The notes beneath the pieces are model-generated. The model made no database searches and was not told the DNA's origin. It was given only the letters and a program-made list of their open reading frames with translations. Shown here piece after piece: positions 39,820 to 51,450 of a stretch of DNA of 54,384 nt. Positions within the stretch are counted from its first letter, which is position 1, and every line of letters begins with the position of its first letter. The translations under genes were made by a program, and so were the position numbers. The stretch is from positions 1 to 54,384 of the forward strand of contig JALWYV010000034.1 of the NCBI GenBank assembly GCA_027003075.1, written 5' to 3'. Origin of the DNA: Caldifarciminota bacterium (GTDB lineage: Bacteria; Hydrothermota; Hydrothermia; LBFQ01).

Positions 39820-42036
39820 CTACTTCACCTCAACGTCGTACTCCATCCTGTACAGGATCTGAAGGCCCTCAGGTACGAGGTCCTCCACGTTGAAGTTCAG
39901 GGACGCCCCCTTACCGAACATTCCCTTTAGCCTATCAAACGTACCCTTAGGCTTCGGATAGACCACCACGTCGTAATCCTCCACCCCGGCCTTCTTCGCG
40001 GCCAGATCCACGGCGTCTATCACCCCGCCGAAGCCGTCCGCTAACCCTATCTCTACGGCGTCGTATCCTGCCCACACCCTTCCGCCTCCTATGGCCTTTA
40101 CGGAGTCCTTAGACAGTCCCCTGCCCTTTGATACGACGGAGACGAACCTATCGTACACTGCTGCTATAGTACGCCGTACCCTCTCAACCTCGCTGGAGTC
40201 CATCCGACGCCAGAGGGACCAGGCGTCGCTGAAGGGGTAGGTCTTGACCACGTCCCGGTTCAGGTGGAGTTTCTTCTTATAGAAGTCCCTCAGGACGAAT
40301 TTAGCTCCCAGTACACCGATAGAACCGGTAATCGTGGTGCGATCCACGAGGATGGTGTCGGCGAGGGTGGAGATGTAGTACCCTCCGGAGGCTGCGACAT
40401 TTCCCATTGAAACTATGACGGGCTTCTCCTTCTTCAGGAGATCCACAGCACGGGCTATGTTGTCGGAGGCGAGGGCGCTCCCACCGGGGGAGTTCACCCG
40501 CAGGACGACGGCCTTCACGCTTTTATCCCTGCGTAGTTTCTCCAGTATCCTGACCATCGTCCTGTCTCCTATGGTCTTTCCTCCAACTATTGGCAGGGGA
40601 CTGTAGGAGCTCTCACCTACGGTTATACCACCTTCGGCCACCACGACGGCTATCTTCGGCTTCTCCGCATTCCACTCTCTTCTGTCAACCTTCACCAGCT
40701 TCACCCTGCTCCCCTTCTTCTTGAGCAACTCCTTCCACTGGTCCTCGTAGACGATACTGTCCACAAGACCGAGTTTCTTCGCGTCTTCGGGCAGGAAAAC
40801 TCCCATGTACCCCTTCACCAGAGAGTTGAGGGAGTCGGCGTCCATCTTCCTGCTCTCGGCGACGTCCTTGAGCCATACACCCCACATAACGTCAAGGAGA
40901 CGTGTGTACTGCTCCCTGTTAGGCTCAGACATCGTGTCCCTTACGAAAGGCTCAAGGGCCGACTTGTACTTGCCCATACGGAAGTCCTGAACCTCTATGC
41001 CGAGGGAGTCAAAGGTCCTCTTGAAGAAGGTTAACTCTGCAGACAGACCGGGGAAGGACAGGTCCCCCTCGGGAGGCAGGTAAACCTTGCCGACGGATGC
41101 GACGTAGTAGGAGGCGGTACCGTAAGAGTCGCTGAAGAAGAGGACCTCCTTACCCTTCTCCTTCGCCCTTTTGAGTAGATTTCTGAGTTCCTCAGCCTGT
41201 GCAAGAGAAAGACCGAAATCCCTCAGGTCAAGCGCTATGACCTTAACGTTGGGCGACTCAACCGCCCTCTTAATCTCGCTGATGAAATCGTAGAACTTCC
41301 TCCCGCTACCGAGGAAACCCGTCCGACCGTCCTCCGTGTAGGACTTAACTTTCACCTCGTACCTTCCCTTTTTCGGTGATGGCGTGAAGTAAGACTTTGA
41401 GAGCATGAGACCGAAGGACCTTCCCTTGTCGGAGAGGGCGCCACCGAGACGGAGTTTCGCGAAGGCCACCTCAACACCTGCCGAAAGCCTGTAGTTCTTG
41501 AGGTCGGACGATGAGGCTTCAACCCGAACGCCCACGTAAGGCAGAGGCTGAACGAATACGCCGAAGACGGGGTTTATGCCGGCTATTTCGTTGAGATCTG
41601 TACCGTCCGTCAGGTCCAGTTTCGTATACCTCGTTCCCACGTAAGCCGTGATGTAATTTTTGAACGGTCTGACACCCACACCTACGTCCGCACTGCTGGG
41701 ACCGCTCCCGTCAGTGTTTAGGGCCGCCCCGAAGGAGATGAAGGGATAGGGTCTCAGGAGCAGACCCGCGTTCCATCGCCCGTTGAGGGGGTCGTAACTC
41801 CCACCGAGGGACACGGGACCCCCACCGAAGGCGGAGGAGAGCAGGATGGAATGCCCTCCGGAGTACCCGTACCCTATTCCGAAGTTTCCGAACGCCATAT
41901 TGAAACCGTAGGAGCTGTCGGCGTAGTATAGAAGGAACTCGTTTCCGCCGTAGGAGAGACCGGCGGGATTGTTTACGGAGTTGGCCCCGTAAGAGAGCGC
42001 AACCGATGAAAGTTCAAAGAAGGGGTACAGCACCAT
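39820..42036 (-). CDS. sppA: Signal peptide peptidase SppA with N-terminal beta-barrel-like domain
   Basis: 738 residues. The C-terminal 500 residues are a tandem SppA protease: the general-base lysine K358 in GKYKSALEPF, and the nucleophile S550 in GNVAASGGYYIS, with TITGSIGVLG after it. The first 215 residues are different: alternating Gly, aromatic and short strands (FGNFGIGYGYSGGHSILLSSAFGGG, then VGVGVRPF, LRLGGAL, SFGLML), like an outer-membrane barrel that begins with an ANSVNNPAGLSYGG motif. No signal peptide is seen; a TAA is in frame 12 bases upstream, and TATAAT ends 8 bases before this ATG. Substrates are inferred to be envelope peptides. Confidence 0.93.
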   Translation of the reverse strand: MVLYPFFELSSVALSYGANSVNNPAGLSYGGNEFLLYYADSSYGFNMAFGNFGIGYGYSGGHSILLSSAFGGGPVSLGGSYDPLNGRWNAGLLLRPYPFISFGAALNTDGSGPSSADVGVGVRPFKNYITAYVGTRYTKLDLTDGTDLNEIAGINPVFGVFVQPLPYVGVRVEASSSDLKNYRLSAGVEVAFAKLRLGGALSDKGRSFGLMLSKSYFTPSPKKGRYEVKVKSYTEDGRTGFLGSGRKFYDFISEIKRAVESPNVKVIALDLRDFGLSLAQAEELRNLLKRAKEKGKEVLFFSDSYGTASYYVASVGKVYLPPEGDLSFPGLSAELTFFKRTFDSLGIEVQDFRMGKYKSALEPFVRDTMSEPNREQYTRLLDVMWGVWLKDVAESRKMDADSLNSLVKGYMGVFLPEDAKKLGLVDSIVYEDQWKELLKKKGSRVKLVKVDRREWNAEKPKIAVVVAEGGITVGESSYSPLPIVGGKTIGDRTMVRILEKLRRDKSVKAVVLRVNSPGGSALASDNIARAVDLLKKEKPVIVSMGNVAASGGYYISTLADTILVDRTTITGSIGVLGAKFVLRDFYKKKLHLNRDVVKTYPFSDAWSLWRRMDSSEVERVRRTIAAVYDRFVSVVSKGRGLSKDSVKAIGGGRVWAGYDAVEIGLADGFGGVIDAVDLAAKKAGVEDYDVVVYPKPKGTFDRLKGMFGKGASLNFNVEDLVPEGLQILYRMEYDVEVK

Positions 42037-42044
42037 AGCAGGCG

Positions 42045-42050
42045 ATTATA
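42045..42050 (-). promoter_or_regulatory. -10 box for sppA
   Basis: Perfect TATAAT (in GCGGTATAAT) 8 bases before the ATG at 42036. Confidence 0.65.
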
Positions 42051-50850: not shown

Positions 50851-51450
50851 ATGCTTTTACTCGTAGGACTGCTCAAGATAGCCCGGCTCCAATACGATGG
50901 TGGAGGAGACTGGTACAACGACCCCGAAATCCTGCCGAACATAACGAAAGCATTTAACGCCAGAGTTTCCCCCGTTTTTGATACCCTTCCCTACAGTGTT
51001 AGACCTTCATCTCCAGAAATATACGAGTACCCTATTCTGTTCATGACGGGACACGGGAAGGTCGTCTTTTCAGAAAAGGACGCGAAGAACCTGCGTCGCT
51101 ACCTCCTCAACGGTGGGTTCCTGTACGTTGACGACGACTACGGCCTTGACGAACACTTCCGGAGAGAGATAAAGAAGGTACTTCCGGAGTACGAATTGGT
51201 TGAGATACCCCCGGAGCATCCCATCTTTCACATCTTCTACGATCAGTCCCTTCCCAAAGTTCACGAGCATTATCCGGGACCACCTAAGGCTTACGGTATA
51301 TTCGTTAAAGGAAGACTCGTGGTGTTCTATACGTGGAACTCTAACGTCTCAGATGGCTGGACCGACCGCTACGGCGATCCTCCGGACATACGGGAGAAGG
51401 CCATCCGTATGGGCATAAACATCCTAATGTACTCTCTGGTCGGGATATAG
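50851..51450 (+). CDS. DUF4159-domain protein
   Basis: 199 residues. Matches the DUF4159 pattern: RLQYDGGGDWYNDPEILPNI near the start, then YPILFMTGHGKVVFSEKDAKNLRRYLLNGGFLYVDDDYG, PPEHPIFHIFYD and the end YTWNSNVSDGWTDRYGD. The ATG follows the V4R stop directly, so the three genes are one unit. The fold resembles class I glutamine amidotransferase-like domains without an obvious nucleophile. A short hydrophobic start (MLLLVGLL) is too brief to call a signal peptide. DUF4159 proteins often accompany von Willebrand and MoxR-type genes; none is here. Confidence 0.88.
   Translation: MLLLVGLLKIARLQYDGGGDWYNDPEILPNITKAFNARVSPVFDTLPYSVRPSSPEIYEYPILFMTGHGKVVFSEKDAKNLRRYLLNGGFLYVDDDYGLDEHFRREIKKVLPEYELVEIPPEHPIFHIFYDQSLPKVHEHYPGPPKAYGIFVKGRLVVFYTWNSNVSDGWTDRYGDPPDIREKAIRMGINILMYSLVGI

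Follow-up and report, generated by a model that had tools for sequence, protein, structure and literature searches.

The E. coli protease SppA (protease IV, 67K type, peptidase family S49; structures 3bez and 3bf0) is anchored in the inner membrane by one N-terminal helix. The short Bacillus-type SppA (3rst, 4kwb) consists of a single protease domain. FadL, TodX and PorV are 14-strand membrane barrels with an N-terminal hatch, and FadL and TodX act as substrate channels. Proteins exported by the classical Sec/SPI route carry an N-terminal signal with a positively charged n-region and a hydrophobic core of at least about seven residues. Among the E. coli signal peptides in UniProt the median length is 22 residues, and the shortest have 15-16 (PMC5963308). 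We show here that a gene in the window, the whole stretch of 54,384 nucleotides that was analysed, encodes a 738-residue fusion of a complete SppA protease with an N-terminal domain predicted to form a small barrel, and that this fusion starts without a classical signal peptide. In titles and abstracts of the open-access literature we found no report of a barrel-SppA fusion or of an outer-membrane SppA.

Results

The gene (Table 1) belongs to a genome of 2.1 Mb in 62 contigs, termed G000 here, and a relative labelled candidate division WOR-3 has a protein that is 95% identical to the fusion over its whole length. A preliminary description of the locus had reported an in-frame stop codon and a -10 box 8 bases upstream of the reading frame, and had concluded that no signal peptide is hidden there. 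Both elements are confirmed, and a TATAAT hexamer is found at near-identical distance in homologous loci (L006-L010). The start position is common to all eight family-level homologues, which come from different genomes; an upstream stop directly adjoins in most of these loci and a -10 box is present in six. Since the eight homologues share the same start, a hidden signal peptide is excluded, and the conclusion stands; a frameshift or a start further upstream is ruled out by the same loci. The position of the hexamer points to a leaderless message. One homologue (L011) has a tRNA-Ala gene (1425-1501) whose end lies 3 bases upstream of the start codon of the fusion. This arrangement is not general; at this locus the 5' end of the message might be released by tRNA processing itself.

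Table 1. Features of the barrel-SppA gene and its upstream region, in window coordinates.
Feature	Position	Strand	Evidence
Barrel-SppA fusion gene, 738 aa	39820..42036	(-)	ORF 42036-39820, SppA profile, phylum survey
TATAAT, -10-like box, ends 8 bases before ATG	42045..42050	(-)	Sequence reading
In-frame TAA stop, four codons upstream of start	42046..42048	(-)	Sequence reading
Residues 1-31: M-x-LYPFFELSS remnant and predicted helical hatch with NPAG motif	41944..42036	(-)	AF2, conservation
Residues 32-213: predicted compact 14-strand barrel	41398..41943	(-)	AF2 pLDDT 93, strand alternation, Foldseek
Residues 249-702: complete SppA 67K protease	39931..41292	(-)	Profile and structure matches
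Lys358, predicted general base	40963..40965	(-)	Alignment with 3bez, invariance
Ser550, predicted nucleophile	40387..40389	(-)	Alignment with 3bez, invariance

The protease part is a complete SppA with Lys358 and Ser550, as initially described. Residues 249-729 match SppA_67K (TIGR00705) with an E value of 7.8e-106 and 354.7 bits (curated cut-off 311.45), and the protease part matches E. coli SppA (3bez) with an E value of 2.6e-59 over most of its length. The SppA fold begins near residue 225-249 and ends near 702, followed by a low-confidence tail (residues 703-738). Lys358 and Ser550, one in each half of the protease, correspond to the Lys and Ser of 3bez in the alignment, and neither varies among 29 homologues. 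The single N-terminal inner-membrane helix of the 67K family is missing. Judged from the models, the fusion is a variant architecture of this family in which the helix is replaced by a predicted barrel.

AlphaFold modelled the full-length protein with 29 homologues (pLDDT 87.7) and the N-terminal domain alone with 85 homologues (pLDDT 93, pTM 0.87). Both models have short helices between residues 7 and 29, followed by 14 strands between residues 32 and 213, the combination of 14-strand barrel and N-terminal hatch seen in FadL, TodX and PorV. Residues 1-215 had been called barrel-like as a whole. The prediction indeed gives a barrel and not another fold, but residues 1-31 are modelled as a helical hatch with the NPAG motif and not as strands. 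Hydropathy alternates along the predicted strands more strongly than in all of 5000 shuffles. At the same strand columns the contrast between lipid-facing and lumen-facing positions is 2.92 in 77 sequences of other families and 2.0-2.9 in the window's own family, with a null of 0 +/- 0.35. In a Foldseek search of the PDB, the matches listed up to an E value of 0.001 are membrane proteins of the beta-barrel type. The greatest query overlap was seen with a chain of the type 9 secretion complex, probably PorV to judge by chain length, and with TodX, while FadL lies slightly beyond an E value of 0.001. By sequence, the domain profile matches TodX with an E value of 0.0042 over 94 positions. Profile searches assigned residues 1-215 to no Pfam or NCBIfam family, and among 85 domain members compared with Pfam one weakly reached UPF0164 and none Toluene_X. 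Searched against viral structures with Foldseek, the full-length protein gave protease matches only. The NP of the hatch motif is invariant among homologues. There is strong support for a small barrel, as modelled for residues 32-213, with the FadL/TodX/PorV outer-membrane family as the nearest known fold.

The full-length fusion profile matches 121 of the 133 genomes of the phylum WOR-3, some of them via a short SppA only, and the N-terminal domain is present in the great majority of the long matches. The barrel-SppA fusion is phylum-wide in candidate division WOR-3, and old; the survey also rules out a contaminant or a local oddity as its origin. G000 encodes in addition a separate SppA of 298 residues with an N-terminal helix, and therefore inner-membrane SppA duty needs no fusion. 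A second, helix-anchored SppA without barrel occurs in family f2 and a few others. Further SppA proteins, about 530-550 aa long, that have an N-terminal helix but lack the barrel were seen at L118, L119 and L121 (G008, G010, G011), where they coexist with the barrel fusion, and at L122 (G125). A group of larger SppA-like proteins (L112-L117; open frames of about 800-835 aa) mostly has ordinary signal peptides and a different N-terminal domain with a YGY[DEA]NPA motif; it is perhaps another barrel fusion.

The N-termini of 85 fusions were read, with the start chosen by a Shine-Dalgarno sequence, a -10 box or an upstream stop; all WOR-3 sequences are assemblies of uncultured organisms, with inferred starts. 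Five of the 85 have ordinary signal peptides (e.g. L092, MKKAIFVFLFVCSISTLLYAFESVAV; L100, MRRFSILHFLFTLCPLLFASTQSVAT), three have a single Lys in the N-terminus, and about 70 begin with a short hydrophobic stretch without Lys or Arg (e.g. L023, MLILLMLGFFNFNSVALSERS). These stubs comprise about 7-12 uncharged hydrophobic residues, and a positively charged n-region is absent from most of the 85 homologues. Since some fusions have full signal peptides, the architecture is an exported one. The eight fusions of the window's family start with M-(0-3 residues)-YPFFEL, without a hydrophobic run. Their best seven-residue hydropathy is 1.2-1.9, with 1.21 for the window protein, while nearly all stubs of other families reach at least 2; the window protein has neither a hydrophobic core of about seven residues nor a charged n-region. 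In a pairwise alignment with L100 it begins at F6, opposite F18, close to where the signal peptide of L100 ends. Within the family, residues 4-16 have a mean column identity of 90%, compared to 57% in the rest of the domain, and are therefore under a constraint of their own; the sequences suggest that this stretch probably serves as part of the hatch. The preliminary description was correct in that the fusion lacks a classical signal peptide: this is true for the window's family, which keeps almost nothing where its relatives have a full signal peptide or, mostly, a stub.

Short hydrophobic starts are not confined to the fusions. N-terminal statistics covered about 0.65 Mb of the 2.1-Mb G000, window included, and 321 genes of at least 150 aa with at most one internal helix and with start evidence. 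A stub was defined as Met followed by seven hydrophobic uncharged residues; the criterion was set after the first list had been seen, and the weight rests on the internal-Met and E. coli controls, not on the threshold. Stub starts were found in 48 of the 321 genes, compared to 1% after internal Met. In the control (200 kb of E. coli with annotated starts) 2 of 114 genes fit (Fisher p 2.7e-5), namely YaaA and KefF, both cytoplasmic proteins. Hydrophobic first strands of cytoplasmic proteins, as in YaaA, mimic stubs and are the false positives of the criterion, so that some of the 48 may not be stubs; weak ones, that of barrel-SppA included, escape it. No in-frame start lies upstream in 43 of the 48 genes. 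Most of the 30 stub proteins searched in Pfam fall into usually exported families, among them an alginate-export barrel, SLT transglycosylase, amidase, subtilases, M1, M14 and M28 peptidases, FG-GAP, polysaccharide export and GWxTD proteins. The domain of a DUF4159 protein (window 50851-51450, plus strand) begins at residue 9, after the eight-residue start MLLLVGLL, and an AhpC/TSA domain starts at residue 10, right behind its stub. Directed look-ups revealed stubs on BamA (MILLLIGQMQGAG; MILLLIGQMQ...), a second Omp85 protein (MILLFAYTYL), TolC-type proteins (MILLLVSLDL, MILLLGVTLQ) and a barrel related to the N-terminal domain of the fusion (MTILLFAQM). In orthologues of an M28 peptidase and of BamA the letters of the stub change and its hydrophobic character is kept. 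Taken as a class (G000 loci L123-L162, the window, and L257-L267), stubs consist of Met and about 6-9 uncharged hydrophobic residues, favour Ala at position 7 and lead straight into the mature domain. Among lipobox proteins one has a stub start and at least 19 have a classical MKR-type start. By the same criterion, 9 of 161 genes in G018 and 11 of 135 in G104, two other WOR-3 genomes, count as stub starts, and these lower rates indicate that the window's family shows the habit most strongly.

Of the 321 G000 genes with start evidence, 215 have a -10-like box next to the start codon and no Shine-Dalgarno sequence, so that leaderless-looking starts predominate. Hence, the hexamer in front of barrel-SppA is ordinary, and we dropped it as a special feature of this gene. 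The boxes resemble TATAAT, TAAAAT or TAGAAT, and within operons of G000 and the window Shine-Dalgarno sites prevail. A search of the open-access literature for leaderless genes in WOR-3 returned no paper.

SecY and signal peptidase I are encoded. The SecY of G000 (L163, contig C20) has Ala at the residue aligned with E. coli I187, likewise in f1, f2 and f3. A prl-type SecY was rejected as an explanation: the plug and pore-ring positions compared are ordinary except for this alanine, which is common to other families. The SecY sequence would allow a permissive channel but lends it no support. G003, an assembly with 7% contamination, has a second, better-scoring SecY (L208, contig C77), possibly on a foreign contig.

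Discussion

We favour, with moderate confidence, the view that the fusion is a periplasmic SppA anchored in the outer membrane by its small barrel, a protein that Sec exports on a minimal signal or none at all and that BAM inserts. The FadL/PorV-like 14-strand barrel would take the place of the helix that fixes E. coli SppA in the inner membrane. Because the number of strands is even, both ends of the barrel come to lie on the periplasmic side, and the protease, seated at the inner leaflet of the outer membrane, would look into the periplasm. Sec would carry the fusion to the periplasm via a signal below the textbook minimum, and BAM would insert the barrel. In the window's family this signal may be a weak M-x-LYPFFELSSVAL stretch, mostly retained in the folded hatch, or there may be none. 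By analogy with E. coli SppA, the fusion would probably assemble as a tetramer and its protease would degrade peptides or misfolded envelope proteins. It is likely that the missing signal reflects a lineage-wide reduced signal and not a separate export system, because most fusions and many exported proteins, BamA included, carry stubs, so that the fusion appears as the extreme of a lineage habit. The preliminary description had proposed that export or membrane insertion must work differently, or that the barrel-like part has another role such as substrate capture; the puzzle is, however, not specific to SppA, stubs being common on exported proteins.

Against the stub-signal account, M-x-LYPFFELSS makes a weaker start than the stubs seen elsewhere. 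The window's family might have no N-terminal signal at all and depend on targeting by the mature part, helped by a translocon that is permissive or by a signal supplied in trans. This would suit a start that is hardly hydrophobic and in which the exact letters of M-x-LYPFFEL are kept, as for a structural element (identity 0.90 compared to 0.57), and signal-less substrates can be exported by signal peptides added in trans or by prl mutants of SecY (PMC5963308). However, the plug and pore ring of SecY are ordinary apart from Ala187, which is common to f2 and f3, and other exported proteins of G000 keep their stubs; we regard signal-free export as unlikely. That an ordinary signal peptide is concealed by a sequencing error or a wrong start is extremely improbable, given the agreement of eight loci from different genomes and the stops and -10 boxes in front of them.

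The lack of a recognisable signal could also mean that in the window's family the fusion stays in the cytoplasm, with the former barrel as a soluble or membrane-peripheral domain. AlphaFold still predicts a barrel, however, and the lipid-facing pattern is maintained in the family (contrast 2.0-2.9, compared to 2.92 in other families and a null of 0 +/- 0.35), which makes a cytoplasmic role very unlikely; a lipid-facing barrel in the cytoplasm would be expected to aggregate. Alternatively, the barrel might mainly conduct or capture hydrophobic ligands or peptides from outside and hand them to the protease, with a secondary role as anchor. Its nearest folds include the substrate channels FadL and TodX, its profile matches TodX, and the NP of the hatch is invariant, but the barrel is only about half as large as FadL and has few long loops, which makes this quite unlikely as the main role. 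Such a function is compatible with the stub-signal account of export.

Beyond the fusion, we see an even chance that in WOR-3 a large part of the envelope proteome, with BamA and TolC-type proteins among it, is exported via uncharged hydrophobic stubs of about 7-9 residues, often from leaderless messages, and that at least one outer-membrane protein, barrel-SppA, dispenses even with the stub. If so, the Sec system of WOR-3 would accept signals much shorter and less charged than the limits known from E. coli allow. If stubs are real export signals, a whole phylum uses Sec signals of about half the length of the shortest ones listed for E. coli, without a charged n-region, and it becomes possible to test directly what Sec needs at minimum to recognise a substrate. 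Stubs would escape standard signal-peptide criteria, thus current secretome estimates for such uncultured bacteria may be much too low.

Compared to known systems, the fusion shares with E. coli SppA the whole protease fold (TM 0.85-0.87 to target) and the Lys/Ser dyad, but has a predicted 14-strand barrel where E. coli SppA has one helix, and would place at the outer membrane a protease that is normally held in the inner membrane. With the Bacillus-type short SppA it has the S49 catalytic fold in common, while that type is without a barrel. The likeness to FadL, TodX and PorV comprises the 14 strands, the N-terminal hatch, the NPAG-type opening and a query TM-score of 0.55-0.62; in contrast to these barrels of about 400 residues, the barrel of the fusion has about 180, few long loops, and is joined to a protease. 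The stubs resemble classical Sec/SPI signal peptides as N-terminal hydrophobic stretches on exported proteins, but with about 7-9 residues and no charged n-region they are far shorter than the shortest listed E. coli signals of 15-16 residues (PMC5963308).
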